Made by a program: the position numbers and the translations under genes
Part shown: positions 12,449 to 33,949 of the stretch, one piece after another
How the letters are laid out: each line of letters begins with the position of its first letter
Position numbering within the stretch: position 1 is the stretch's first letter
Assembly: GCA_024655905.1 (NCBI GenBank)
Contig: JANLFP010000004.1
Coordinates: 145,643 to 209,642, forward strand
From: Tepidanaerobacteraceae bacterium
Lineage (GTDB): Bacteria; Bacillota; Thermosediminibacteria; Thermosediminibacterales; Tepidanaerobacteraceae
Length of the DNA: 64,000 bases
Reading direction: 5' to 3'
Notes under the pieces: model-generated
Database searches by the model: none
Told to the model about the DNA's origin: nothing
The model's input: the letters and a program-made list of their open reading frames with translations, nothing else

Positions 12449-13771
12449 TTAAAATCTATTATTATACATTCCCACTGCTTTTTCCTGCTTGAACATAAGG
12501 TTTTCGTTAAAAATTCCTGCCAAACCTAATTTTGCAACTCTATCCTTTATGATTTCAGGCGATGTTTCATAGATGCCTAATTGTTTCATCCTTTCAAAAT
12601 ATATTGAGCCCGCAAATGTAAATCTTTTATAAAGCCCGTTTTCCGTCTTTAACTGCTCATTTACATATGAAATTATATCTCCAATGGCCAAAGCTCGAGG
12701 CAATTTAATAAGTTCCATATTTAATGCCTTTCTGACGCTGTTGTTCCCTGCTAGAATTCCTGTGCATATCGCTTCTGTATGTCCGATAAATGGTCCCGAT
12801 TTTTCACCTGCACAAAAGAGGTTATTAAGCCCTAATACCTGCAGATAATCATTTCTTGGAGCCATGGCCATATATCTTATAGAATTTCCTTTTCCTGCGG
12901 CATATGGATCCTCAAACCTGGCATTTTCAAATCCTTCGATTTTTCTAAGTTCTTCCAACGGGAAAAAAGGTGTCATCAATTTGGCATATCCAGTGTCCAG
13001 AAGGATAATGTTTTGCGCGTATTCTTCTAGCGCATATTGTTGGCAAACTTTCATGGATAATTTTTCTCTATTAATAAATCTTTCCGGTAACTTGACTACA
13101 ACAACTCCTTTTTCATCCAACTGACTTTTTATATTATCTCCCAAAGTATCTTTATTTAATTTGCAAGACCCGCTCATAGCTCCAAAAATGTCAACAGAAC
13201 GCCTTCCTACCAAGTCTTCCACACCTGCTTTCTTGCTTATGCTTACTCTCGGGCCATATGCAGGGCATCTTTGTATGCACATGGAACAACCATTGCCGTA
13301 TTTCAAACAGTTCCCCATAGGTCCGGACGAGCCGGTTGTTTCAATAAATACATCTCCTTCTATTATATCATCGTTTGCAAGTATAATCCCCTGTATAATA
13401 TTATCCCTGATTTTTACATCTACTGCGCGTGACTTAAATTTAATATTTACGCCTATATCCTCTAAAAATTTTCTAATTTTAGGTTCTATTTTTGTGACAT
13501 CATACAGAGTAGCGTGCTTATGCCCGGGAAAATCTACATTTTTATGTTTTGCCGTACTGTCGCATATCTGGAAAAGCTCGCCAGCTCCCAAAGCAATTGC
13601 CTCTTCTGCTGCGGTAAATCTACCGTTGTTGCGTATTATGCCTCCAACAAGGCCACATCCCAAAAGCATATCAGTTTTTTCTAGTATGGTTACATTTGCG
13701 CCGGCTTTTTTTGCTGCCAGAGCGGCTCCACAACCGGCCCACCCTCCACCTATGATTATTACTTCAACCAT
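12449..13771 (-). CDS. FAD-dependent oxidoreductase with CxxCxxxC motif, paralogue 1
   Basis: 440 residues. The N-terminal dinucleotide fold GGGWAGCGAALAAKKAG (residues 8-24) and later LFCAGEKSGPFIGHTEA show a GidA/TrmFO-like flavoprotein. Around residue 155-175 it has GNCLKYGNGCSMCIQRCPAYG, a cysteine-rich stretch that could ligate an Fe-S cluster or form a redox disulfide. It is closely related by eye to the gene at 21273-22556, over the full length. The start lies 3 nt after the stop of the Fe-S/FAD reductase gene, so the two proteins probably form one electron-transfer unit. Substrate unknown; I infer an amino-acid or amine oxidation or reduction from context. Confidence 0.82.
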   Translation of the reverse strand: MVEVIIIGGGWAGCGAALAAKKAGANVTILEKTDMLLGCGLVGGIIRNNGRFTAAEEAIALGAGELFQICDSTAKHKNVDFPGHKHATLYDVTKIEPKIRKFLEDIGVNIKFKSRAVDVKIRDNIIQGIILANDDIIEGDVFIETTGSSGPMGNCLKYGNGCSMCIQRCPAYGPRVSISKKAGVEDLVGRRSVDIFGAMSGSCKLNKDTLGDNIKSQLDEKGVVVVKLPERFINREKLSMKVCQQYALEEYAQNIILLDTGYAKLMTPFFPLEELRKIEGFENARFEDPYAAGKGNSIRYMAMAPRNDYLQVLGLNNLFCAGEKSGPFIGHTEAICTGILAGNNSVRKALNMELIKLPRALAIGDIISYVNEQLKTENGLYKRFTFAGSIYFERMKQLGIYETSPEIIKDRVAKLGLAGIFNENLMFKQEKAVGMYNNRF

Positions 13772-13774
13772 TTT

Positions 13775-14725
13775 TCACCCTCCCAACACTTGTTCGCTCC
13801 CGAGCTGAATTTTGCATAGATGTATCAATTCTCCGTCAATCATAGACTCGCAACTTCCGCAAATTCCTTCTCCACAGCACAATTGATAATTGTTTGAGAT
13901 TACCAGAGGTATTTTATAGCCGACTTTATTTAGAACATTCTGTATAAATTTGTGTTGAGCATCAGAACCGCAACTGTATATGAAATCCGTTTCGCTTTTT
14001 TCAATTATTTCTTTTAGACGAATCTTGTGGAATGAACTGTTTAAATCAAAAACTTGAAACTCAATTCCCAATTTGTTTATTTCTTTTTCGACTAGATTTA
14101 CTTTTAGATTTCCGGGGTCCAATAAAACGGTAATTCTGTTGTTTCCTCTTAAAAGGTTCTTTACTACTGGTAGTAGAGATGCCTGACCTATTCCCCTTCC
14201 GATTACAATCCAATTTTTATTGTAACTTGATTTTATATGCTTCAAACCAAAAAGTCCGTTCCAATACGGGCCTCTGATGAGAATAGCGTTTTCAGATATA
14301 GCAAGGGCCTTGGATTTAGGACCTATTATATTTATAGCAAAAGTCAGATGTTTTTTCGATTCATCCACATCCATTACGCAAAGCGGCACATCATAATATT
14401 CTAAGAAATTTGCTGGTCTTAAAAAAGCAAAGGCTCCCGGTTGATTATAAGCTCTGATAAGAGAATCGGAAGGAATTTCGATTGTGAGTGTAAAGAGTCT
14501 GTCATTAATATATTTTTTCTCGGCAATTGTAACACATAACGATTTTCTTTCTTCTATTTTACCATTTGCCCATATATATTCCTGATATACACAAATCCCC
14601 TGCCATTTACAATCACAATATTCCTTCCCCTGCAGAATGGAACAAATAAGGCAATTATCTGTTTTAGCCAGATAGCAAGGACAATATTGAGAACCGGCAT
14701 CTATGCAATAATAGTTGAAAGCCAT
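13775..14725 (-). CDS. FAD/NAD-binding reductase with 2Fe-2S motif (PyrK-like), Cys-rich N-terminus
   Basis: Electron-transfer protein of the ferredoxin-NADP reductase superfamily, similar in layout to PyrK, the electron-transfer subunit of dihydroorotate dehydrogenase B. An FNR core occupies about residues 55-285 (FAD strand near PGAFAFLRPA, NAD part with WIVIGRGIGQASLLP). The C-terminal CCGEGICGSCESM plus a final HLCK supply the 2Fe-2S ligands. Unusually the first 50 residues carry eight cysteines, including YCPC, CLIC and YCDC. The ATG at 14725 has AGAGGTG upstream. It is the first gene of a two-gene unit with the FAD paralogue; a terminator lies just upstream at 14816-14842. Confidence 0.82.
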   Translation of the reverse strand: MAFNYYCIDAGSQYCPCYLAKTDNCLICSILQGKEYCDCKWQGICVYQEYIWANGKIEERKSLCVTIAEKKYINDRLFTLTIEIPSDSLIRAYNQPGAFAFLRPANFLEYYDVPLCVMDVDESKKHLTFAINIIGPKSKALAISENAILIRGPYWNGLFGLKHIKSSYNKNWIVIGRGIGQASLLPVVKNLLRGNNRITVLLDPGNLKVNLVEKEINKLGIEFQVFDLNSSFHKIRLKEIIEKSETDFIYSCGSDAQHKFIQNVLNKVGYKIPLVISNNYQLCCGEGICGSCESMIDGELIHLCKIQLGSEQVLGG

Positions 14726-14815
14726 TTCGCCCACCTCTTGTTAAAAAGATAAAGTTCATTAATAATCTATTCAAATAGTGCAAAATAGGTGAATAGCAAA
14801 ATTGATATATAGCAA

Positions 14816-16626: not shown

Positions 16627-18444
16627 CTACTTTTTTATTACCGTACCTCTTCCTGCCCGTCCCGGATAAGCTCCTTCTTCCCTGCTGCCCAGCAATCCCT
16701 TGTATAGCGCGTCAATAAAATTGCCGTTTTGGACAATAGATTCAAGTACATTTTCAATACCTCTTTCTATTTCATAAGCCCATTTTTCTGCTGAATCCGT
16801 GGGAACAATTCCTGATTTGCCAAAGAACCTAAAGGCGGATTGTGTGGCTTTCAATGTATCTATTCTTGCAGCGACTGAAATCGGACCACCGGAAAATGCT
16901 TCGTCCGCCGACGCAATTGAAATGCCGTCAACACCGAGCGAAGAAGCCAGAGATGCATGCAGTGCTGTCATTAAAGACGACTGGACACGATCTTCCGTTT
17001 GGGTTAAAAATCCTATAGGTGCACCGCACCAAATAGGTGCATTTACTATATTTCTAAGGCAAAGAATTTTTGCAGCATTAAAATCAACATAATTATCCTG
17101 CATCTGGCCACTGACCATAACTTCAGGAGAATAGCAGAACAGGGGCTGCAAAATTGGTTTCCCACCCAGTCTCAATCCCAGTTTGGAAACTATCAGCATG
17201 CCTGCAAAGGCTTTATAAGCTGGAACACCGCAGAGTTCCTCGTTTGTGACCACGTCAAATGGCATGTTGAATTCTGCAGCGTATTTTATGGCACAAACTG
17301 CATCTACAGTAAGCCGCTCCGGGTCTGTACCACCTCCCAGAGAACCGTAAGCAATATTTATTTTTGTGAGATCTGCTCCGATTATGCCTGCCAGCAGCAC
17401 CGTCTCTGGCGTGTTTAAGCCTCGATGGGCTCTTACCTGCCATAAAGTGAATGGACTTAAGGAATCTTTTATCCGTTTTAGGTTTTCATAGGTTATGACA
17501 GAGCCGTCTTCTTCATGGGTGATATAACCTTCAAAAAAACCTTCTGTTCTGGCTCCCCATGATGGATCAAAATGTACAGCTCCATCAGCACCCCATGCCT
17601 CGCAGGATTTTATATGAGCTATATCCATGAAAGGGCAGCCGGTGCCGTATTGAATAAAAACTAATGGATTTTTATCGGCATGTTGCAGTTTCAAAGGATT
17701 CATCCTTGAATTGGTTTCATTTACATATGTCTCAAGAGCTTTTAATTCCTCAGGCAGGAGAGGTCTTGTTTTTTCTCTGTATTTACCTGCCTCATAAAAA
17801 TCCTTTACAATTTTGTCGCACAGTTTGGCATATTCCAGCCGCAGACTTTGTCTTTCCGATTCGTTCGATGTTTTTAATATTTGTCTCCTCAGCTCAGCCC
17901 TTTGTATGGCTGATGTAGTTTTATCGCTAACATAATCAATTATTCCATCAACTATCTTATCCAGAAGTTGTTCAATTGATTTATTTTTAAAAGAATAGTC
18001 GTATCCTCGAGTGATATCTTTTTTTGCCTTTTTACCTCTTATTTCATCAGGTACATACTCACGGCCTTCCACAAATGCTACAGCCTCTTCTACTGTTGTA
18101 CCGGGGCCAAAACCTGCGTCAAATCCAAGTTCTGCAGCAAGTTCAGGTCGTATTGCCATGCCGCCGATCCCGATTTTCACCTTATCTCGTATACCCGCTG
18201 CTTCAGCAAGGTCGACAAATCTTCCAAGAATTTCTGCAACTCCATAGCCTAGAGTTCTGCTTATTAAAACTACATCGACATTGTTATCTATAATTGCCTT
18301 TATGATTTCTTCCTGAGAATAATCCGGAGGCAAAAGTAAAGCATCATGCCCTGCTCGCTCCAGCCCCCTTTTTATCATTTTCAATCCTATATCATGTACT
18401 GGATCAAGAGGTGCTAAAAGAACTTTTTTTCTTTCAAATGACAT
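16627..18444 (-). CDS. Cobalamin-dependent aminomutase-like protein: N-terminal B12 Rossmann domain fused to KamD-like TIM barrel
   Basis: 605 residues. Residues 1-130 form a B12-binding Rossmann domain: LDPVHDIG (D14, H17, G20) is the lower-ligand motif, followed by LISRTL, IGIGG and LGFDAGFGPGT, the last very like the end of KamE and OraE. Residues about 140-245 are helical and charged. Residues about 258-600 resemble the TIM barrel of lysine 5,6-aminomutase alpha: NPLVFIQYGTG, AWGADGAVHFDPSW, the EGFFEGY segment, ADEAFSGG and a final YKGLLG...PGRAGRG. The D-to-H spacing is one longer than the usual DxHxxG, and the insertion that carries the PLP-binding lysine in KamE and OraE is absent. 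In the known enzymes the Rossmann domain is C-terminal to the barrel or on another chain. Substrate unknown. Confidence 0.75.
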   Translation of the reverse strand: MSFERKKVLLAPLDPVHDIGLKMIKRGLERAGHDALLLPPDYSQEEIIKAIIDNNVDVVLISRTLGYGVAEILGRFVDLAEAAGIRDKVKIGIGGMAIRPELAAELGFDAGFGPGTTVEEAVAFVEGREYVPDEIRGKKAKKDITRGYDYSFKNKSIEQLLDKIVDGIIDYVSDKTTSAIQRAELRRQILKTSNESERQSLRLEYAKLCDKIVKDFYEAGKYREKTRPLLPEELKALETYVNETNSRMNPLKLQHADKNPLVFIQYGTGCPFMDIAHIKSCEAWGADGAVHFDPSWGARTEGFFEGYITHEEDGSVITYENLKRIKDSLSPFTLWQVRAHRGLNTPETVLLAGIIGADLTKINIAYGSLGGGTDPERLTVDAVCAIKYAAEFNMPFDVVTNEELCGVPAYKAFAGMLIVSKLGLRLGGKPILQPLFCYSPEVMVSGQMQDNYVDFNAAKILCLRNIVNAPIWCGAPIGFLTQTEDRVQSSLMTALHASLASSLGVDGISIASADEAFSGGPISVAARIDTLKATQSAFRFFGKSGIVPTDSAEKWAYEIERGIENVLESIVQNGNFIDALYKGLLGSREEGAYPGRAGRGTVIKK

Positions 18445-18461
18445 TTATTTTCCTCCCCGAA

Positions 18462-18686
18462 TTAATTTTTTAACCAGCCGTAACGATCACCGGGCTTATA
18501 AACATAACCCCTTAGCCTGACCCTGGCGCCGGGGCCTTGATGCTGACAAAAAACAATATTTACATCTTTAAATCCCAATTCATCCATAAGCTGAATTGAT
18601 AGTTTTTTCCCTTCTTCTTCATCTTTGCATACAATGAATGTCTCCAGATCTACAGCATCCATTATTCTTTCCATAGCTTTTGACAT
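18462..18686 (-). CDS. Small mutase subunit resembling the KamE/OraE dimerisation domain
   Basis: 74 residues from ATG 18686, which has AGGAGG 7 nt upstream (a longer frame from 18710 has none). The sequence pattern KLSIQLMDELGFKDVNIVF then ARVRLRGYV matches, by eye, the alpha/beta dimerisation domain that precedes the B12 domain in lysine 5,6-aminomutase beta and in ornithine aminomutase OraE. It lies 17 nt before the 605-residue mutase, so the gene pair reproduces the order dimerisation domain, Rossmann, barrel. It is not OraS. I infer it is the second subunit of the mutase. Confidence 0.65.
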   Translation of the reverse strand: MSKAMERIMDAVDLETFIVCKDEEEGKKLSIQLMDELGFKDVNIVFCQHQGPGARVRLRGYVYKPGDRYGWLKN

Positions 18687-18796: not shown

Positions 18797-19546
18797 TCAA
18801 TTATCGCTATTAAAATTTTCATCATTATATACTATTTCCCAATATTTTTTCACATCTTTTGCAAGATTTTCAATATGGCGCACCATTGCTTTTTCCGCCA
18901 TATCGGCATTTCTGGAAACAATAGCTTGAAAAATATTTTTATGATCCAGAAGCACGGTGCTCCTTACTTCTTTTCTTATATATTCTAAAATCGGAGATAT
19001 TTGTCCATGCTGTCGTATTAAATCCATTGCAGCATCAAGAACTCTATTTTTTGCGGCCTGGGATATGGCTTTATGAAATTTAATATCATCGTCCGCAATA
19101 GATAAGCCCTTATCTACATGCTCTTGCTGAATATTTATTATTTCTTCCATCTCCTCTATTTCTTTTGCAGTTATAAACTGCGCGGCAAGTTTTGCCAGCT
19201 GGCTTTCTATTGCTTTTCGCGCAATTAATATATCCAATAGTTCCTGTTTACCGGTGACTTTTATAGCGTTTACCAGTTCATTACCATAATGATTTATGCG
19301 GTATTCCTGCTCCAATTCCTTTAATTTTTTTTGACCGACTGAAGTTAAATTTCTTCCCTTGAATCCGACTTTTTCAGTATATCCCTTATTATCGAGTTCT
19401 CTCAATATTCTTCCAGTTGTAGCTTCGCTTATATTAAACCCCTGCATTATTAAATTGTCGCGTATAAAACCGGAGCCTACGGGTATTTGTGAATTTGCAA
19501 TTATTTTCATGATGATATATATTAGTCGCTGCTTCTCCAGTAACAT
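18797..19546 (-). CDS. Transcriptional regulator: winged-helix N-terminus plus FCD ligand-binding domain
   Basis: 249 residues from ATG 19546 (GGGGGGAG upstream). The first 75 residues look like an HTH_12/NrpR-type winged helix (QGFNISEATTGRILRELDNKGY), not the usual GntR head. Residues about 95-240 form an all-helical FCD domain (ARKAIESQLAKLAA, DDIKFHKAISQAAKN, LDHKNIFQAI, RHIENL) whose Asp and His residues usually bind a metal and an organic acid or amino acid. It is placed between the permease and the mutase operon, so it is the natural candidate to bind the palindromes at 18703 and 25062. The separate 211-nt gap upstream holds its promoter but no clear motif. Confidence 0.78.
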   Translation of the reverse strand: MLLEKQRLIYIIMKIIANSQIPVGSGFIRDNLIMQGFNISEATTGRILRELDNKGYTEKVGFKGRNLTSVGQKKLKELEQEYRINHYGNELVNAIKVTGKQELLDILIARKAIESQLAKLAAQFITAKEIEEMEEIINIQQEHVDKGLSIADDDIKFHKAISQAAKNRVLDAAMDLIRQHGQISPILEYIRKEVRSTVLLDHKNIFQAIVSRNADMAEKAMVRHIENLAKDVKKYWEIVYNDENFNSDN

Positions 19547-19793
19547 TTTCTCCCCCCAAATGTCATTAAATTTAATTTTCAACTTTATTATACATTACTT
19601 TTTGTTTAAAAAAAATATTTTTTTACAATCCGGCAACCTTATTTTGTTTTAGTAAAGCTTTCCTAAAAAGATTAATAGTCACAACAAATCCCACCATGTT
19701 ATAATTTAACAAAGGAGTTATTTCTTTAATCGGATGGGAATTGTGTGACTAATTTTATGCCAATTTTTTATATTGTTTTCATGTATTTATATT

Positions 19794-21179
19794 TTAGAGA
19801 ATAAAAATCGCTGCGATGGTAGTTATTATCAAACCAACAACAACAGGTATGAAATTCTTTCTGGCGAGGTCATTCGGATCAACCCCGGCAATTGCTGCTA
19901 CCGGAATAATTCCCCATGGTATTATTGTTCCGCCTCCGACCCATACTGCAGAAATCTGTCCTAATGCCCCCAGCGTAGCTTTATCGACATGTATTGCTGT
20001 ACTGAAAGTTTGAGCTAAAGATCCTACTAAAGGAAGACCAGAAAAACCTGAACCATCCAATCCGGTGATGCCTCCTATTATCATTTGAATAAATGCTACA
20101 GGAATTTTGCTTAGAGGGACTGCCTGTGAAAGCGCAATTCCCAAATCTGATAAGAGACCCGTTGCCTGAGGACCTAAAATGGCTTTTGCTGTAGATTCGG
20201 AACCAAGAAAGAAAAATCCTCCAATGATTATAACCGGTGCAAAAACTTTCATTCCAAATAAAAACCCTTCTCTGATGTAATCGGTAATTTTTTCAAGTGA
20301 ATCGGCGCCAAATCCAAGCAATGAAATAACAGAAGTAATGACCAGGGCGGTTCCACCGATTAGCGCAGTGGCATCTCCTCCTCTTAATTTATACTTTAAA
20401 AGCAGAATAACGTCAATTAAAAATAAGATTATAAATAATGCTGCACCAATATATGATACAGAAGTAAATTTTGCGTTTTTTTGTTTTTCATCGGCTTTTT
20501 CGTATACTAGCCTGTGAGTTTCATTTTCGGTTTTTTGCCGAGTCAAATCCCTTTTGACAAATATATAAGATAAAACGCTTGTAGTTATTGCCATGGTGAG
20601 CCATAATGGGAAACTGGCACTCATTACAGGAGTGGCTGAAGCAAAACCTGCAGCTTTTGCAGTTATGGCGGGAGCTCCCTGGATTACATAATCTCCTGAT
20701 AATCCGATACCGTGGCCAAATATGTTCATTGCTACTGCAGCTCCCATAACTGAAAGACCGGCCCTGACTGCTATAGGTAGCATAATGGCGCCAATCAAAG
20801 CAACCGCAGGTGAAGGCCATATGAACAGTGTAACAATAAGCATGACAAAACCCAAAACCCAAAACGCTATATCCGGATTAATCATTATCCTTGCTGCAGG
20901 TCTCATAATAATATAATCGCTGCCCACATCACCCATAGCTTTGGACATTGCCACCACCAGTCCGATTACAGTTATCAATCCCAGAAATTCTGTGCCTGCA
21001 GCAATTAAAGCATTGAATAGAACCTGGACTGATTTCCATATATTACCTGTTGATACAAAACCTACTAGCAAAATTCCTATTACACAAGGTAAAACAGTAT
21101 CTCTTCTTAGAGCCATAGTTGCTATTATAACGATCACCATTCCAAAATATACCCAGTGTATAGCAGAAAGTTGAACCAT
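19794..21179 (-). CDS. Multi-spanning permease of the ion-transporter/GntP-like type
   Basis: 461 residues with about 11 to 12 hydrophobic helices spread over the whole length and a charged cytoplasmic loop near residues 210-235 (KRDLTRQKTENE). Conserved-looking glycine-rich re-entrant segments (IIGGITGLDGSGFSGLP; AVWVGGGTIIPWGIIP) suggest a secondary carrier of the gluconate/dicarboxylate/NhaC superfamily. Exact family and substrate cannot be read. It sits between the PLP/FAD genes and the regulator, so I infer import of the cluster's amino-acid or amine substrate. Confidence 0.75.
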   Translation of the reverse strand: MVQLSAIHWVYFGMVIVIIATMALRRDTVLPCVIGILLVGFVSTGNIWKSVQVLFNALIAAGTEFLGLITVIGLVVAMSKAMGDVGSDYIIMRPAARIMINPDIAFWVLGFVMLIVTLFIWPSPAVALIGAIMLPIAVRAGLSVMGAAVAMNIFGHGIGLSGDYVIQGAPAITAKAAGFASATPVMSASFPLWLTMAITTSVLSYIFVKRDLTRQKTENETHRLVYEKADEKQKNAKFTSVSYIGAALFIILFLIDVILLLKYKLRGGDATALIGGTALVITSVISLLGFGADSLEKITDYIREGFLFGMKVFAPVIIIGGFFFLGSESTAKAILGPQATGLLSDLGIALSQAVPLSKIPVAFIQMIIGGITGLDGSGFSGLPLVGSLAQTFSTAIHVDKATLGALGQISAVWVGGGTIIPWGIIPVAAIAGVDPNDLARKNFIPVVVGLIITTIAAIFIL

Positions 21180-21272: not shown

Positions 21273-22556
21273 TTATACTATTTGCTGATTGAAAAAGTTT
21301 ATCATACCCACTTTTTCCACTCTCTGTCGAATAGTGTCAACATCTGTGGTGTAAAGACCAAGCTGCTTCATTCTCTCAAAATACACTGAACCCGAAAAAG
21401 TGTATTTTTTGGATATTCCTTCTTCTGTTTTCATTTGTTCCTTTACATATGCAATAGCATCACCGACAGCCAGTTCGGTAGGTATTTGCACCAATTCTTT
21501 ACCTATCGCAAATCTTACAGCGTTTGTTCCTGCAAGTGTACCGGTGCAAATTGCTTCTGTATGACCTACCAGCGGACCCGCTTTTTCTCCACCGCAGAAA
21601 AGATTGTCTACTCCCTCTGTTTTTAAATAATTATCTCTTGGAGAAATAGCCAAATATCTCATAGAATTACCTTTATTACCGGCATATGGATCTTCATACC
21701 TTGCATTTTCAAATCCCGGAATTCTGCGCAAATTTTCCAGAGGGAAAAATGGCGTCATCAATTTTGCATGACCGGTATCCAGCAATACAACGTTTTCGAT
21801 GAATTCCTTTAAAGCATATTGCTGACAGGCTTTTTTATTTAAAATGTCCGCTCCTTCTCTCACTTCTTCCGGAACAGGTACAACCGCTACACCGGTCGAG
21901 TTTAGCCTATCCACGATTTCTTTGGATAGTGAATCCTTATGGAGTTTACATGAACCGCTCATGGCGCCGTAAGTTCCATCGGCCTTTTTTGCCATCATTT
22001 CTTTAACACCCATTTTGCCAGCCACACTTATCCGGGGACCGTAGCTCGGGCATCTGATAATACACATGGCGCATCCATTCCCATATTTCGCACAGTTGCC
22101 CTGCGGGCCCGCCGTACCGGTGCATTCCACAAAAACATCGCCTTCAAATATTTCTTCCTCGTCTGTAATCACGGCTAAAATTTTACTGCCTTGAGCTTCC
22201 ACATCTTTTACCCTGGCTTCTGTATGAATTTCAACCCCCGCATTCAATAAAACCTTTTTTACAGCGGGTTCTACCCTTGCCACATCATAAAGGGTCGCAT
22301 GCTTATGACCGGGGAATTCAATATTCTTATGGCGGGCTACTTCATCTGTCACATGGAATAATTCTCCCGCACCCATTGCTATCATTTCTTCCGTCGCGGT
22401 AAATCTTCCGTTGTTTCTCATTATCCCGCCTACCAAACCAGTTCCCAGCAACATATCCGTTCTTTCTAGCAAAACTACATCAGCACCAGCTTTTTTTGCA
22501 GCCAGTGCTGCAGCACAACCGGACCATCCACCACCGATTACTACTACTTTTGGCAT
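21273..22556 (-). CDS. FAD-dependent oxidoreductase with CxxCxxxC motif, paralogue 2
   Basis: 427 residues, close to the 440-residue protein at 12449-13771 from end to end (for example TDMLLGTGLVGGIMRNNGRF and ECTGTAGPQGNCAKYGNG, then CAMCIIRCPSYGPR). GGGWSGCAAALAAKKAG near residue 7 binds FAD. It lies 62 nt after the PLP-enzyme gene, with a strong hairpin between. Two copies in one cluster, one coupled to the PyrK-like reductase and one to the PLP enzyme, suggest two related redox steps or alternative partners. Substrate unknown. Confidence 0.82.
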   Translation of the reverse strand: MPKVVVIGGGWSGCAAALAAKKAGADVVLLERTDMLLGTGLVGGIMRNNGRFTATEEMIAMGAGELFHVTDEVARHKNIEFPGHKHATLYDVARVEPAVKKVLLNAGVEIHTEARVKDVEAQGSKILAVITDEEEIFEGDVFVECTGTAGPQGNCAKYGNGCAMCIIRCPSYGPRISVAGKMGVKEMMAKKADGTYGAMSGSCKLHKDSLSKEIVDRLNSTGVAVVPVPEEVREGADILNKKACQQYALKEFIENVVLLDTGHAKLMTPFFPLENLRRIPGFENARYEDPYAGNKGNSMRYLAISPRDNYLKTEGVDNLFCGGEKAGPLVGHTEAICTGTLAGTNAVRFAIGKELVQIPTELAVGDAIAYVKEQMKTEEGISKKYTFSGSVYFERMKQLGLYTTDVDTIRQRVEKVGMINFFNQQIV

Positions 22557-22618: not shown

Positions 22619-24085
22619 TTACTCAATAAAACCGCTATATTTAGCGACAATTTCCATCAATTTGACCAGAGCTTTCACAGCATATCTGAAATTCTGTTCT
22701 ATTATTTGACCGTTCTCGTCGGTAGTTCCGAGACCCGGTGAAATCATAATATTTGCATCATAGGCTACAGTCGGAATTACACCCATTGAGCCCATTCCGC
22801 TCTGGAATATGTTGGTTCCGGAATACATGTCTTCTATGGAGAAGATGGGCAGCCCCATTTCATTGCCGTTCCAAGTGTTTTCATAGTTCACTTCAACAGC
22901 TCTTGAATTGTATGATTTTGTGATGATCAAACCCTTTTTAATCTTTGGATGAATCTGATCAAATTCCTCTTTAACAATATTGTACATATCGTCTACAGGT
23001 TTTGTTAATTCTTCAGGATTATCCCGCAATTCCTTTAAGGCAGCAATTATTCCCAGTAGAGCTTCCTTCCCTGGATCATTTGTAACATAAGCTGCTTTGC
23101 CATAAGACGCCGTGGTGCCATATCTGTCGCCGTGCATGCCCAGGGCCCGCCTGATTGGAACCATAAATTCTTCCTTGCCAACAATCAAGCCAGCTGTAGT
23201 AGATTCACTAGCTTTATCAAGGCTGTATATAATTACATCTGCACCACTTTTTCTTATATCGTGACCTATGAAAGGAACACCCCAAGCATTGTCAATTACA
23301 TATGGCACATCATAATCATGAGCGATTTGTGCAAGTTTTTTCTGCAGCATCGGGGTACCATCAGTATCTTTTACGCCATACCCATAGCCGGGAGTATCAT
23401 AACCCAGCGAAGTGATACCGGTCAGCATGGCGGCATGTCTTTCTGCAATAGTATTTATCTTATTTGCGGAAGCTTCAGGGTCAACTTTTGTTAATTGTAT
23501 CGTTGGATGGTATTTAATCCCGTGAACTGAATAATCTGCACCAACCAATGGAACCATATACACGCTGGTGTTGTTCTGACGCTTACCGTAAAATCCCAAT
23601 TCGCCTGCTGTAGATCCTCTATCTGCAAGAATATCTTTAAATCTGCCGGGGAAAGGCCTGCCATACCCTCCGTGATGGTGCAGATGCTTTTCGTACGGAA
23701 TGATATAACGCGCCTGGTAACTGTCACCTCTGCCTTGCATTGGTGGTGTAAACAAAGCATCAAAAGTAACCCATAATCCCGCCTCGCATGTGTTTACAGG
23801 TGCAACGTCGTAATCATCCCCATAAACATCTTTGACTATAGAACGAATTTCATCTACCAATTTTGCCAGTGGAATAACCTCTGTACTGCCTTTATCTAAA
23901 GCTTCTCTGACTTTTTTTGTAAGAGGAGAAGGGCAACCAGAAATAGCTCCTGTCAAACCAAATTTTCCTCTCAATTCAGCAGGAATACCTATTTCATCGG
24001 CCGCTTTTTTTGCTTCGGCATAAATATTGGGGATATTGGCTTGTAAGAATCTGTACATCTCAAATTTCTTTGTGAACTTAGCCAT
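22619..24085 (-). CDS. Fold-type-I PLP-dependent enzyme of unrecognised specificity
   Basis: 488 residues. The fold-type-I signature is visible: Asp265 in PYVIDNAWG and the probable Schiff-base lysine K291 in IIYSLDKASEST, 26 residues later. A His-rich turn EKHLHHHGGYGRP lies near residue 132-143. The family looks related to SelA/SepSecS-like and Cys/Met-metabolism enzymes but I cannot name it. It starts 17 nt after the RidA-like gene; such proteins clear reactive enamines made by PLP beta-eliminating enzymes, so elimination, deamination or transamination chemistry is a reasonable inference. It does not resemble OrtB or the ornithine racemase of the ornithine pathway. Confidence 0.78.
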   Translation of the reverse strand: MAKFTKKFEMYRFLQANIPNIYAEAKKAADEIGIPAELRGKFGLTGAISGCPSPLTKKVREALDKGSTEVIPLAKLVDEIRSIVKDVYGDDYDVAPVNTCEAGLWVTFDALFTPPMQGRGDSYQARYIIPYEKHLHHHGGYGRPFPGRFKDILADRGSTAGELGFYGKRQNNTSVYMVPLVGADYSVHGIKYHPTIQLTKVDPEASANKINTIAERHAAMLTGITSLGYDTPGYGYGVKDTDGTPMLQKKLAQIAHDYDVPYVIDNAWGVPFIGHDIRKSGADVIIYSLDKASESTTAGLIVGKEEFMVPIRRALGMHGDRYGTTASYGKAAYVTNDPGKEALLGIIAALKELRDNPEELTKPVDDMYNIVKEEFDQIHPKIKKGLIITKSYNSRAVEVNYENTWNGNEMGLPIFSIEDMYSGTNIFQSGMGSMGVIPTVAYDANIMISPGLGTTDENGQIIEQNFRYAVKALVKLMEIVAKYSGFIE

Positions 24086-24102: not shown

Positions 24103-24561
24103 TTATTTTATTTTTACAATAATTTCCACTTCGCAGGTTGCATCCATAGGAAGTTCGCTAACACCCACTGCGGACCGCGCATGAGTTCCGGCGTCGCCAA
24201 AAATCTGGCTTAGCAATTCAGAAGCACCATTTATGACTTTGGGCTGCTGGTTGAAGCCATCGGCACTGTTTACAAATCCGACCACTTTTATTATTTTTTC
24301 AACATTATCAAGACTTCCGGCCAGGGATTTAACAATGCTCAGGCAGTTTAGTGCACAGATTTTGGCCGCATCATAGGCGTCTTCAATTGTAACTTCTCTG
24401 CCGACTTTTCCCTTGTACTTCAGCTCACCATTTACAAAAGGAATCTGACCAGCTGTATAGATATACTTTTCAACTTTTACCCCCGGAACATAGGCTGCTA
24501 CCGGCTTTGGCGGCTCAGGCAAATTGATTCCCAATTCCTGAAGTTTCTTTTCAAATGACAA
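24103..24561 (-). CDS. RidA-family protein (enamine/imine deaminase-like)
   Basis: 152 residues of the Rid/YjgF fold: YTAGQIPFVNGEL near residue 35 and HARSAVGVSELPMDATCEVE near the C-terminus, which contains the conserved Arg that binds the carboxylate. Archetypal RidA hydrolyses 2-aminoacrylate and related enamines released by PLP enzymes. The extra N-terminal 20 residues and overall length resemble the longer Rid subfamilies rather than RidA itself. It lies between the unknown 140-residue gene and the PLP enzyme. Confidence 0.88.
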   Translation of the reverse strand: MSFEKKLQELGINLPEPPKPVAAYVPGVKVEKYIYTAGQIPFVNGELKYKGKVGREVTIEDAYDAAKICALNCLSIVKSLAGSLDNVEKIIKVVGFVNSADGFNQQPKVINGASELLSQIFGDAGTHARSAVGVSELPMDATCEVEIIVKIK

Positions 24562-24628: not shown

Positions 24629-25051
24629 TTATCCAATTATTATTTCGTCATCCAGTTGCAAGTTTCTTTCTTTGCCGGAAATGCGCTCGTTACAGTATAC
24701 AATAATATTATAATGATTTGGCATATGAGTTTCATCAAAACCCGCTATTTTTCCCACAATATTTCCCGCTATTTTTACTTCGTCTCCAACTACGATTACG
24801 CTGCTTTCTTTTACGGCAAAAAAACCTATATAGGCAATTTTATTTACTATATCGCCTGGTTTCTTGGATTCGTCGGTAATAATCACTTCATGCACTTCAT
24901 GTTTTAAAAGGCATCGCGAAGGTTGAGTTATGAGTTTCAAGCCGCGTTCTTCGTATTTCCCATCAAGGACCACTACAAGATTTCCTTTTAAAGGTTTTTT
25001 TCTAAAATAGGGGTTTGTTTTAAACATCCCTGTCTTGTATGGATCATTCAT
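24629..25051 (-). CDS. Small protein of unknown function, first gene of the RidA-PLP-FAD unit
   Basis: 140 residues from ATG 25051, chosen because AGGAGG lies 6 nt upstream; the open frame to 25171 is not needed. It appears soluble and beta-rich (VVVLDGKYEERGL, VIITDESKKPGDIV, VVGDEVKIAGNIVGK, LQLDDEIIIG), with two KIAGN/DGKIAG-like repeats that suggest a small barrel fold. I do not recognise the family. Its leader contains the second copy of the CTCATC-N3-GATGAG palindrome, which ties it to the mutase operon. Confidence 0.7.
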   Translation of the reverse strand: MNDPYKTGMFKTNPYFRKKPLKGNLVVVLDGKYEERGLKLITQPSRCLLKHEVHEVIITDESKKPGDIVNKIAYIGFFAVKESSVIVVGDEVKIAGNIVGKIAGFDETHMPNHYNIIVYCNERISGKERNLQLDDEIIIG

Positions 25052-25061
25052 ATTAGTCCTC

Positions 25062-25076
25062 CTCATCAATGATGAG
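25062..25076 (-). promoter_or_regulatory. Palindromic operator candidate CTCATC-N3-GATGAG (RidA-PLP-FAD unit)
   Basis: Same 6-bp arms and 3-nt centre as at 18703-18717. It ends 10 nt before the start codon and overlaps the AGGAGG ribosome site by two bases, so binding could block initiation of transcription or translation. Confidence 0.6.
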
Positions 25077-25212
25077 CTATATTGTTTATTAAAGTATTCT
25101 ACATTTTTATTGAATATCCTTCTCGTAAAAAAAATTTTTTTCGACATGCGTGATGCAAAACGCATCATCATCAGATGAATGAAAATATTTATCTATATTT
25201 TGGGATAGCTTT

Positions 25213-30037: not shown

Positions 30038-31363
30038 TTAAGCAAAAGAAATGGATTTGTTACTTGCTTTAAATATTTCTTTTCTCAACAGGTCTTCATA
30101 GGTTTCTCTCTGGACCATCAAATCGGCGCATGAATTTTTTACAAATACCACAGCAGGCCTCGGGAGCATATTATAATTACTGGACATTGTAAAATGATAT
30201 GCTCCAGTGCAAAAAACAGCAAGGATATCTCCCGGTGAAACCCGTGGCAGCTCCACATCCCATACAAGCATATCGCCGGACTCGCAGCACTTACCTGCGA
30301 CTGAGACCCTCTCTTCTGGAGCTTTTCCTGCTTTATTTGCAATTATGGCACTGTACTTGGCTCCATATAATGCAGGTCTGATATTATCATTCATGCCTCC
30401 ATCAACGCTTATATATTTCCTTATACCCGGTATATTTTTAATTGAGCCTACAGTATAAAGTGTGGTCCCTGCCGCCCCCACTATAGCTCTTCCGGGTTCG
30501 ATCAAAATCTTAGGAATCTTTATGTTTAGTTTTTCACACCATGTTTTTACCGAATATACCAGAGTTCCCAAATAATCTTCGACAGAAAGGGGGTTATCAC
30601 TTTCAACATATTTAATGCCAAATCCGCCTCCAAAATCTATTTCTCTAATCTCAACGCCAAACTTTTCCCGTACATCACTGATGAATTTAAGCATTACTTC
30701 CGCCGTCATATTAAACGGTTCTCTTTCAAATATTTGAGATCCTATATGGCAGTGGAATCCCATGAGTTTGATGCCTTTCAAACTGAGAGCATGTTCTACC
30801 GCCATCACTGCATGGCCATTTTCAAGACCGAATCCGAATTTTGAATCTATCTGACCGGTTTTGATGTAATCATGCGTATGTGCCTCTATACCCGGTGTAA
30901 TCCTTAAAAGAATCTTTATCCTGTTGCGCCATTTCTTTGCAAGGTCTTTCAACATTTCCAGTTCGTAAAAGTTGTCTACTATAATTCTGGCCACACCATA
31001 CTCCACAGCCATTTTGAGTTCTTCATAGGATTTATTGTTGCCGTGGAAATAAATCCTGTTAGCTGGAAAACCTGCTCTGATGGCACAGTAGAGTTCACCG
31101 CCAGATACTACATCCAGACTGAGGCCTTCTTCTTCGATAATTTTGCACATGCCCATTGTCAGAAAGGCTTTGCCGGCATAGATTACTTCGCTGTCTCTGT
31201 GAAGTCGTTGCAATGTCTGTTTATATAAACGGCAGTTTTGCCTAATATATTCTTCGTCCATTAAATAAAGGGGTGTGCCAAATTCTTTTGCCAGGTCTAC
31301 TGTGTCGCAGCCACCAATCTCCAAATGATTTAATTCATTAATTCTCGCAGTGCCAAATAGCAT
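30038..31363 (-). CDS. lysA: Diaminopimelate decarboxylase
   Basis: Last step of lysine synthesis, meso-DAP to lysine, PLP-dependent (fold type III). The PLP lysine is in VIYAGKAFLT (near residue 64); HCHIGSQIFE binds the phosphate region and KCCESGDML carries the catalytic Cys of the C-terminal domain. 441 residues, normal. It is under the lysine riboswitch at 31606-31790, so lysine should shut it off. Confidence 0.97.
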   Translation of the reverse strand: MLFGTARINELNHLEIGGCDTVDLAKEFGTPLYLMDEEYIRQNCRLYKQTLQRLHRDSEVIYAGKAFLTMGMCKIIEEEGLSLDVVSGGELYCAIRAGFPANRIYFHGNNKSYEELKMAVEYGVARIIVDNFYELEMLKDLAKKWRNRIKILLRITPGIEAHTHDYIKTGQIDSKFGFGLENGHAVMAVEHALSLKGIKLMGFHCHIGSQIFEREPFNMTAEVMLKFISDVREKFGVEIREIDFGGGFGIKYVESDNPLSVEDYLGTLVYSVKTWCEKLNIKIPKILIEPGRAIVGAAGTTLYTVGSIKNIPGIRKYISVDGGMNDNIRPALYGAKYSAIIANKAGKAPEERVSVAGKCCESGDMLVWDVELPRVSPGDILAVFCTGAYHFTMSSNYNMLPRPAVVFVKNSCADLMVQRETYEDLLRKEIFKASNKSISFA

Positions 31364-31890: not shown

Positions 31891-32865
31891 TCAAACGGCG
31901 ATCGATGAGGACCATTTTCCGCATTTATCTCCCCATCTCGCCATTATCTTGTCATCCCGGTATATTTGAATTATTTCACAGCAGTTCGCACAACCTTTGC
32001 ATTCAAAACTTTTTACCTTGTAATCTTTAAGCGCGACATTAAATCCATAGAAATTTGTCTTTTTGCTTTTGCTTTGCATTATATATCTCCTCGCCAGTAT
32101 GGCTGCTCCTATAGCACCCATTACATTATAGTGTTGTGGCACTGTAATACTCATGCCCAGTTCTTCTTCAAAAGCCTTTTTAATGCCTAAATTGGTAGCA
32201 ACGCCCCCCTGGAACAGCACCGGAGGTCTTATTTCCTTCCCCTTCGCTACATTAGACAGATAATTTCTAACCAAAGCCTGACACAAACCATAAATCACAT
32301 CTTCAATTTTATAACCCATCTGTTGTTTATGAATCATATCTGATTCTGCGAAAACTGCACATCGACCTGCTATCCTCGTAGGAACTGTAGAAGTAAGAGC
32401 CATTTTACCGAATTCTTCTATAGGAATTCCCAATCTTTGAGCTTGTCTATCCAGAAAGGAGCCTGTACCAGCTGCGCATACTGTATTCATTGCGAAATCT
32501 GCAACTATTTTATTTCTTATTAGAATAATTTTTGAATCCTGACCGCCTATTTCTAGGATGGTCTGTGTATCGGGGTATTCCTCAAGTGATGCCACGGCAT
32601 GTGTAGTTATTTCATTTTTAACTATGTCCGCTCCCACCAGAACCGACGCCAGTTGTCTCCCGCTTCCTGTAGTACCAACGGCTAATATTTCTATTGAGCT
32701 GTTAAATTCGTCATTCAATATTTTTAATCCTTTTACAATAACGTCAATGGGTTTTCCCGCGGTATTTAAGTATAATTTTTCTATAACATCATTTTCTTCA
32801 TTAATTAAAACAAGTTTTGTGCTTACTGAACCTACATCAATGCCCAATGAACATTTCATTTTCAT
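31891..32865 (-). CDS. Acyl-CoA dehydratase activase (BcrA/BadF/BzdA/HgdC family ATPase)
   Basis: 324 residues. The acetate/sugar-kinase-type ATP fold is visible: GIDVGSVSTKLVLI at the start, GTTGSGRQLA, ILEIGGQDSKII and the cluster-ligating region VCAAGTGSFLDRQA with CAVFAESDM; in HgdC the cysteines bind a 4Fe-4S cluster that donates an electron to a 2-hydroxyacyl-CoA dehydratase. The C-terminal 50 residues add four Cys (ECKGCANCC, GDKCGKW). No dehydratase is nearby; with the next two genes it forms the split form of the very large activase-like proteins of Clostridia. Overlaps the next gene by 29 nt. Confidence 0.9.
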   Translation of the reverse strand: MKMKCSLGIDVGSVSTKLVLINEENDVIEKLYLNTAGKPIDVIVKGLKILNDEFNSSIEILAVGTTGSGRQLASVLVGADIVKNEITTHAVASLEEYPDTQTILEIGGQDSKIILIRNKIVADFAMNTVCAAGTGSFLDRQAQRLGIPIEEFGKMALTSTVPTRIAGRCAVFAESDMIHKQQMGYKIEDVIYGLCQALVRNYLSNVAKGKEIRPPVLFQGGVATNLGIKKAFEEELGMSITVPQHYNVMGAIGAAILARRYIMQSKSKKTNFYGFNVALKDYKVKSFECKGCANCCEIIQIYRDDKIMARWGDKCGKWSSSIAV

Positions 32866-33949
32866 TTTGTACCTCCGATTTGTATTTAATCATGTCAACA
32901 AATGCCTCAATTCGAGTTCTCAAACCAGCTTCAGCAGCATGTTCATCGAGCACTAGCGTCATTGCAGGCATCAAATATTTTCTGCTTGCGCTGGGGAGAA
33001 CACTCTTAGCCACTATTTCGGGCATACAAGTGAAAGGCAAAAGTTGTATTATTCCGTTAAAACCTTCTTTTGCGCATTTTGCCACATATGCTATGCTCTC
33101 TTGCCCATGACCCCCTATAAAGCAATTTATAAAAGGTTTTGACGAGTCAAGAAATTCTTTGTGTTCTCTGGGCTTTAAAAACGCTGGAAAAAGATTGTGT
33201 CTCACCCAATCCGTAATATATATACTTCTGTGAACTTCAACTCCAATTTCACCGAGCTGTTTTTCAATATTGAGGTTCGCAAATGGTTCTAAAATTGTGT
33301 AAATCTCACCCGTTAAACCAATTCTGGGCGAATCTGAATTAGTAAGAATTAAATCGCGAAACATTATTTCTATCTGCTTTTGTATATTTTTTATTCCTGT
33401 CAGAGTCATCACATCTCCAATCAGCTTTATCGACTTTTTATAAAACTTGTCCGTTTCACCTTCAAATTTTTCGCGTGGTCTTGCTCTGCAAGCCATCATA
33501 TCCAGTTCATCAAGCAACTTAGCTTTTTGCCAGGCAAGTCTTGCGGCATATATCAAATTATTATAAGAATAAATTTTTTTATTTGTAATCATTTCTAACT
33601 TTTTAAACAATTCCCATAGGTGACCTTTGGGAGGATCAAATACAACCATATTGAATTTATAACCCGCATCTTTCAATATTTCTCTTTGAACTTCGGCATA
33701 GTATCCAAATCTGCATGGCCCGATTCCTCCGGCCATGATTATAGTGTCTGCTCCTTTTTCCAAAGCTTCTATATAGTTTCCTATATTTATTTTCAGAGGA
33801 AGGCATGCAAATTCAGGTGAGTATTTTATACCAAGCTCGAGTGTTCTTTTACTGCAAGCAGGCGGCACCACCACATCCACTTCCAGACACTCGAAAAAAC
33901 TTTTTAAAGGGATATACATATTACCTAAGTGAGGAAAAGTTACTTTCAC
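32837..33949 (-). CDS. Acyl-CoA dehydratase activase-related protein (DUF2229/HgdB-like), copy A
   Basis: 370 residues. The motif YSPEFACLPLKINIGNY with an invariant Cys, the later GGIGPCRFGYYAEVQREIL and LLPFTCMPEIVAK, and the terminal LDEHAAEAGLRTRIEAFVD are typical of the DUF2229-containing partner proteins of activases. The start is GTG with GGGAG 8 nt upstream. It overlaps both neighbours (29 nt each), implying tight stoichiometry. The cysteines could hold an Fe-S cluster. Substrate unknown. Confidence 0.85.
   Translation of the reverse strand: MKVTFPHLGNMYIPLKSFFECLEVDVVVPPACSKRTLELGIKYSPEFACLPLKINIGNYIEALEKGADTIIMAGGIGPCRFGYYAEVQREILKDAGYKFNMVVFDPPKGHLWELFKKLEMITNKKIYSYNNLIYAARLAWQKAKLLDELDMMACRARPREKFEGETDKFYKKSIKLIGDVMTLTGIKNIQKQIEIMFRDLILTNSDSPRIGLTGEIYTILEPFANLNIEKQLGEIGVEVHRSIYITDWVRHNLFPAFLKPREHKEFLDSSKPFINCFIGGHGQESIAYVAKCAKEGFNGIIQLLPFTCMPEIVAKSVLPSASRKYLMPAMTLVLDEHAAEAGLRTRIEAFVDMIKYKSEVQNENEMFIGH

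Follow-up and report, generated by a model that had tools for sequence, protein, structure and literature searches.

The described enzymes closest to the locus analysed here are lysine 5,6-aminomutase (LAM), formed by KamD and KamE, and ornithine aminomutase (OAM), formed by OraE and OraS. Their TIM barrel, dimerisation domain and B12-binding Rossmann domain are arranged as barrel / dimer-Rossmann in LAM and as barrel-dimer-Rossmann in OAM. PLP is bound by a lysine of the Rossmann domain, K144 or K629, respectively, and further PLP contacts are made by residues of the LAM barrel, namely, R184, S189, Y236, S238, Y263, R268, and N299 (PMC3958899). The adenosyl group is contacted by E411 in LAM and by E338 in OAM (PMC4413051). 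Until the substrate arrives, the B12 domain of both enzymes is kept in the open state by the lysine-PLP bond (PMC4256349), which is generally regarded as the latch that prevents stray radicals.

The window, that is, the whole stretch of 64,000 nucleotides from a Tepidanaerobacteraceae bacterium that was analysed, contains a gene cassette (Table 1) with two adjacent ORFs for proteins of 74 and 605 residues, termed S74 and MUT605. Profile comparisons and structure models make it probable that both proteins together form one adenosylcobalamin (AdoCbl)-dependent radical mutase, representing a third clade of the LAM/OAM superfamily. The identity of MUT605 as a mutase and its reaction are inferred.

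Table 1. Features of the window, in order of position (res., residues of MUT605)
Feature	Position	Strand	Basis or occurrence
First GidA-like flavoprotein	12449..13771	-	
PyrK-like electron-transfer subunit	13775..14734		
KamB-type reactivase subunit, 363 aa, P-loop	15517..16608	-	NCBIfam NF052386, 253.7 bits, cut-off 210
MUT605, fusion of B12 Rossmann domain, helical segment and TIM barrel, 605 aa	16627..18444	-	
KamD/OraE-type TIM barrel, res. 257-605	16630..17676	-	Foldseek, hhalign
E515, aligned with adenosyl-contacting Glu411 (LAM) / Glu338 (OAM)	16900..16902	-	Invariant
Helical segment, res. 150-256, similar to OraS and to the KamD N-terminus	17677..17997	-	Weak
Rossmann B12-binding domain, KamE type, res. 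1-126	18067..18444	-	Pfam, hhalign, tree
D14-P-V-H17-D-I-G20 motif	18385..18405	-	46-member comparison
S74, free dimerisation domain, 74 aa	18462..18686	-	AlphaFold2, Foldseek, hhalign
FCD-type GntR-family regulator	18797..19582	-	Pfam FCD, 1.1e-21
Polytopic membrane protein, presumed permease	19794..21179	-	No Pfam family above cut-off; 21/59 loci
FAD427, GidA-like flavoprotein with four-Cys motif	21273..22556	-	Pfam GIDA, 4e-36; 44/59 loci
PLP488, SelA/DgaE-like PLP enzyme	22619..24085	-	TIGR01437, 3.6e-11, below curated cut-off
RidA/YjgF-type imine/enamine deaminase	24103..24561	-	Pfam PF14588, 1.8e-24
DUF6917 protein (Gamma180)	24629..25171	-	PF21891, 2.2e-48; 44/59 loci
lysA-like decarboxylase gene	30038..31363		
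Lysine riboswitch, RF00168	31606..31790	-	130 bits
Acyl-CoA dehydratase activase-like gene	31891..33949	-	TIGR00241, 186 bits
Full-length OLE (Ornate Large Extremophilic) RNA, RF01071	52704..53318	-	532.9 bits

Gene layout and domain order

Both ORFs are confirmed where an earlier note, made from this stretch of DNA, had placed them. S74 starts at the ATG at 18686, with the ribosome-binding site AAAGGAGG just before it, and MUT605 starts at the ATG at 18444, just preceded by GGGGAGG, so that 17 bp separate the end of S74 from MUT605. A search of other genomes for this two-gene order, which the note had proposed, placed S74 directly upstream of MUT605 in 97 of the 101 locus copies, between which there is some redundancy. 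The gap was at most 59 bp in all copies except one, and one exception to the adjacency is a cut contig on which the end of S74 is still visible. Natural fusions of the two genes were found in none of the same, partly redundant, 101 copies.

The domain order of the pair is thus dimer / Rossmann-barrel, with S74 as a separate protein and the Rossmann domain fused to the barrel, which fits neither the LAM nor the OAM order. In several genomes, for example, on G012:C9, the OraE profile (NF040743) runs unbroken from S74 through its stop codon, the one stop inside the match, into the Rossmann domain of MUT605, from which it follows that the dimer-Rossmann gene order of KamE and OraE is kept. On this profile evidence, what has changed with respect to OraE is that the gene is split after the dimerisation domain and the barrel has changed ends, which amounts to a circularly permuted OraE order. 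The claim of the note that the domains are rearranged relative to the known enzymes was therefore borne out, and the rearrangement is kept across the phylum.

Domains of S74 and MUT605

When the PDB was searched by sequence alone, the S74 profile returned chance matches only, and a structure-based search was needed. The AlphaFold2 model of S74 (pLDDT 90) had its best Foldseek matches in the PDB to 3kp1, 9q1a_B, 8t0v_C, and 1xrs_B with a probability of 1.00; six of the seven best matches were LAM or OAM chains, at an rmsd of 1.1 to 2.4 and a TM score of up to 0.63 on the query. Alignment by hhalign to the dimerisation domain of KamE gave 94% (E 9e-8), compared with at most 2.5% for the KamD and GlmE controls. 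By model and profile, S74 is thus a homologue of the domain that stands N-terminal in KamE and in the middle of OraE, and the LAM/OAM dimerisation domain is present here as a separate protein. The free dimerisation domain proposed in the note for the 74-residue protein agrees with this fold, the lack of which had been named as a reason to abandon the proposal.

The only Pfam match in MUT605 is the B12-binding domain at residues 13 to 122 (E 3.5e-17). Searches of NCBIfam and the PDB found this Rossmann domain to be closest to KamE (8t0v_C, E 2.5e-15), to which it aligned with an hhalign probability of 99.6% and, in Foldseek, with 37% identity at an rmsd of 2.0. These results are in accord with the KamE-like B12 domain that the note had seen in the first 130 residues, and the axial His characteristic of such domains is retained. 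D14, P15, V16, H17, D18, G20, and K22 are invariant in all 46 members of the family compared, position 19 being variable (D-x-G), and H17 is presumed, by analogy, to be the lower axial cobalt ligand. The motif Asp lies at H-3 in MUT605, as opposed to H-2 in LAM and OAM, as expected from the note's description of a motif one residue longer than DxHxxG. In a tree of Rossmann domains, MUT605, KamE, and OraE form three separate clades that together stand apart from generic corrinoid proteins with a support of 100/99. The "new mutase class" of the note stands to the extent that this tree gives a third clade of the LAM/OAM superfamily; it is not a new fold.

The barrel part of MUT605 had no sequence-family match in the Pfam, NCBIfam, and PDB searches, for which reason an AlphaFold2 model was built from an alignment of 33 relatives (mean pLDDT 87, pTM 0.81). 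Foldseek against the PDB ranked the LAM alpha chain first (1xrs_A, 5.5e-17; 8t0v_A; 9q1a_C), with ornithine aminomutase next (3e-11) and glutamate mutase E close behind. GlmE and OAM score equally well in this search, and the chemistry therefore does not follow from the barrel alone. By hhalign, the barrel matched KamD at 87-89% (E about 4e-6, over about 303 columns), whereas the GlmE control reached 1.5%, so that by sequence profile the barrel is of the KamD/OraE type and not of the GlmE type. The note had described the last 350 residues as a KamD-like barrel and had considered that profile searches might place it in an unrelated family, which they did not.

Between both domains, a helical stretch (residues 138 to 256) showed weak hhalign matches to OraS (80%) and to the N-terminal part of KamD (32%), which match each other at 95%, and the AlphaFold2 model shows helices there. 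A KamD-profile match on G067:C37, considered as support for the KamD N-terminal region, was rejected because it is the coiled coil of a chemotaxis protein (L177). The linker around residues 131 to 140 has low AlphaFold2 confidence, consistent with flexibility.

Distribution of the family

A profile of the MUT605 family was searched in 299 sampled genomes of the phylum of the window. Full-length MUT605 was present in 28 of them with at least 827 bits, and the next matches were KamE proteins at 73 bits; this gap indicates a sharp family boundary with no intermediate. S74 was detected in 27 of these 28 genomes and in none of the others, a pairing that is not due to chance, and PLP488 occurred in all 28 genomes and in one genome without MUT605. 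The hypergeometric probability of these co-occurrences is about 1e-37, without correction for relatedness. PLP488 is thus the obligate genomic partner of MUT605. The 60 related loci are nearly all labelled Bacillota (57-87% identity). The pair in the window is no isolated oddity but belongs to a conserved family. A locus labelled "Sumerlaeota" (L060), considered as a member from outside the phylum, has the same coordinates as G049/L173, which is placed within it, and hence there is no clear case outside the phylum of the window. No description of the family or of DUF6917 was found in the open-access literature, subscription journals lying beyond the search, and the family is widespread and apparently undescribed.

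The genome that has MUT605 without S74 (G044) encodes the most divergent member (48% identity; L167, 8361-10280). It adjoins aldehyde ferredoxin oxidoreductase, isochorismatase-like, and FAD427-like genes and may have another function. In several families (the window, L033, L060, and L198), the cassette occupies a recurrent place, among genes that we take to be scpA/scpB, ytfJ, dacB, spmA/spmB-like, and rluB, which suggests old vertical inheritance; in L014, L017, and L026 it is found among what are presumably mreB/min genes.

Active-site residues and the role of PLP

The spacing between H17 and G32 is 16 residues in all 46 members, with no insertion in any, and therefore the lysine loop of KamE and OraE is absent throughout. 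The residue 11 positions after H17 is Leu in 45 members and Met in one, and no member has a lysine aligned with K144/K629. The missing PLP-lysine segment reported in the note for a single sequence hence applies to the whole family, and the aligned lysine that would have spoken against it did not appear.

The PLP pocket was compared using 32 KamD, 9 OraE, and 46 MUT605 sequences, and the KamD and OraE templates led to the same columns. R184, S189, Y236, S238, and R268 (LAM numbering) are invariant in the 32 KamD and 9 OraE proteins; their MUT605 counterparts are D293, A298, A339, R341, and A/G371 in 45 or 46 of the 46 members. The counterpart of Tyr263 is kept as Y366, the sole one of these six pocket residues to be retained. 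Posteriors were 0.91-0.94 at Y366 and A371 in the KamD alignment and 0.3-0.6 at D293, A339, R341, and E515, and in view of the modest values at some PLP positions this residue mapping is good but not a proof. The adenosyl-contacting Glu is present: E515 is found in 46 of 46 members and is aligned by both templates (posterior 0.3-0.57). Judged by these residues, the adenosyl-handling end of MUT605 appears to be in order, unlike the PLP end. Among the 116 invariant columns of the 46-member alignment, R338, H340, R341, and R377 point to a substrate that is anionic. Catalysis without PLP is, on this comparison, somewhat the likelier reading for MUT605. For the note's proposal of an enzyme that is PLP independent or holds PLP differently, there are thus, besides the absent lysine, five more exchanged PLP contacts.

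The most far-reaching account, to which as a whole we would give an even chance, is that of a PLP-free AdoCbl radical mutase that evolved on the LAM/OAM scaffold or predates it, acting on an unrecognised anionic substrate of the amino acid type in a conserved Bacillota pathway with PLP488 as its obligate partner. Alternatively, MUT605 could be a PLP-dependent aminomutase that anchors PLP differently, the aldimine lysine having moved to the barrel as K361 or K411. Its nearest relatives are all PLP enzymes, both lysines are invariant in 46 of 46 members, and K361, at the end of barrel strand 4, precedes by five residues Y366, which aligns with the PLP-stacking Tyr263. However, the phosphate-binding R184 and R268 are both exchanged, an invariant Asp standing in place of R184, the same is true of S189 and S238, and a barrel lysine is used in no known relative (PMC3958899, PMC4256349), so that we regard such a relocation as possible but rather unlikely. 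It is less probable still that the pair is a usual lysine or ornithine aminomutase whose domain shuffling is of no functional consequence and that it shifts the amino group of a related diamino acid in the same way. The domains and the type of reactivase are indeed the same, but the residues that hold the PLP-substrate aldimine are all changed except one Tyr, the LAM/OAM fermentation genes were not recognised in the cassette, where PLP488, FAD427, and DUF6917 are conserved instead, and some genomes carry LAM or OAM besides the cassette. A corrinoid methyltransferase, in which an MtaC/MttC-like corrinoid domain is fused to a methyltransferase TIM barrel, is very improbable, because, although the HDIG motif is reminiscent of corrinoid proteins and the Rossmann domain also fits MtgC/MtbC profiles, the best structural matches of the barrel are LAM, OAM, GlmE, and MCM and not MttB or MtaB, the Rossmann tree splits MUT605 from the corrinoid class (100/99), and a KamB-type reactivase and a dimerisation domain are present with no methyltransferase activator seen in the cassette.

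The cassette and other features of the window

The KamB-type gene is the next after MUT605 and is the only KamB copy in the genome of the window (G000), in which profile searches found neither KamD nor OraE; its presence speaks for an AdoCbl enzyme that is prone to damage and against a methyltransferase. Two genomes with LAM as well as the cassette (G024 and G135) have two KamB genes each. The MutS-like gene, presumed KamC, that lies beside KamB and KamD in a LAM locus has no dedicated copy in the cassette or in G000. The smallest cassette consists of GntR - S74 - MUT605 - PLP488 (L013, L014, L015, and L017), and among the cassette genes the GntR regulator is found directly upstream of S74 in 29 loci. 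For the membrane protein and the flavoprotein no informative solved relative was found, and no cobalamin riboswitch was detected near the cassette in the window or in seven related loci. PLP488 paralogues without a mutase (L191-L198) were inspected for hints at the substrate, but their neighbourhoods differ and no single substrate is indicated.

The cassette contains two paralogous GidA-like flavoproteins, both of which carry a C-x6-C-x2-C-x3-C-P motif and could hold an Fe-S cluster; the first of them stands alongside the PyrK-like electron-transfer subunit. Elsewhere in the window are a full-length OLE RNA and a lysine riboswitch upstream of the lysA-like decarboxylase gene, the latter being ordinary biosynthetic control with no link to the mutase. 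A further gene is acyl-CoA dehydratase activase-like, and its same-strand neighbours are presumably DUF2229-like genes.

Proposed mechanism and significance

By family resemblance, AdoCbl would bind to MUT605 base-off/His-on at H17, with S74 possibly serving as a dimerising base while the Rossmann domain swings over the barrel. E515, as in OAM, may assist in cleaving the Co-C bond, after which a hydrogen would be taken from the substrate in the barrel by the 5'-deoxyadenosyl radical. This substrate is probably anionic and could be gripped by R338, H340, R341, and R377, and its 1,2-rearrangement would most likely proceed without PLP. The KamB-type protein is predicted to reactivate the damaged holoenzyme. 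Co-occurrence and family names suggest that product or substrate may be shared with PLP488 and that RidA may hydrolyse a released imine.

Since MUT605 lacks the aligned Rossmann lysine, the lysine-PLP latch would be impossible in its LAM/OAM form. A natural test case for radical gating is thus at hand: the scaffold is the same, but it has no such latch, and the B12 domain is attached to the other end of the barrel. The family points to an uncharacterised B12-dependent pathway common to thermophilic, acetogenic, phototrophic, and halophilic Bacillota, and it helps to date when PLP joined B12 in the LAM/OAM superfamily.

Comparison with known systems

With glutamate mutase (GlmE + GlmS), the pair would share an AdoCbl-dependent barrel plus Rossmann domain working without PLP, and GlmE is the next structural neighbour of the MUT605 barrel after LAM and OAM. 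However, similarity between the barrel profiles is not detectable, and glutamate mutase has no dimerisation domain and a separate small B12 subunit. LAM (1xrs, 8t0v, 9q1a) has in common with MUT605/S74 the KamD-type barrel, the KamE-type Rossmann domain, the dimerisation domain and the KamB-type reactivase, as well as equivalents of the cofactor His, Glu411, and Tyr263. It differs in that the MUT605 Rossmann domain is N-terminal to the barrel and the dimerisation domain is a separate protein, in that MUT605 lacks the Lys144 loop and has all of R184/S189/Y236/S238/R268 replaced, and in that its cassette has other neighbour genes and no MutS-like KamC. OAM (3kp1) has the same domains, an equivalent of Glu338, and, in OraS, a possible counterpart of the helical segment; its C-terminal motif GYYPER-NG resembles GAYPGRAG of MUT605. 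In contrast, OraE has the order barrel-dimer-Rossmann, its Lys629 and PLP pocket are absent from MUT605, and the OraS-like part appears to be fused inside MUT605. The MUT605 family reuses known domains and, if it is PLP free with a new substrate, would represent a new reaction class on the LAM/OAM scaffold.
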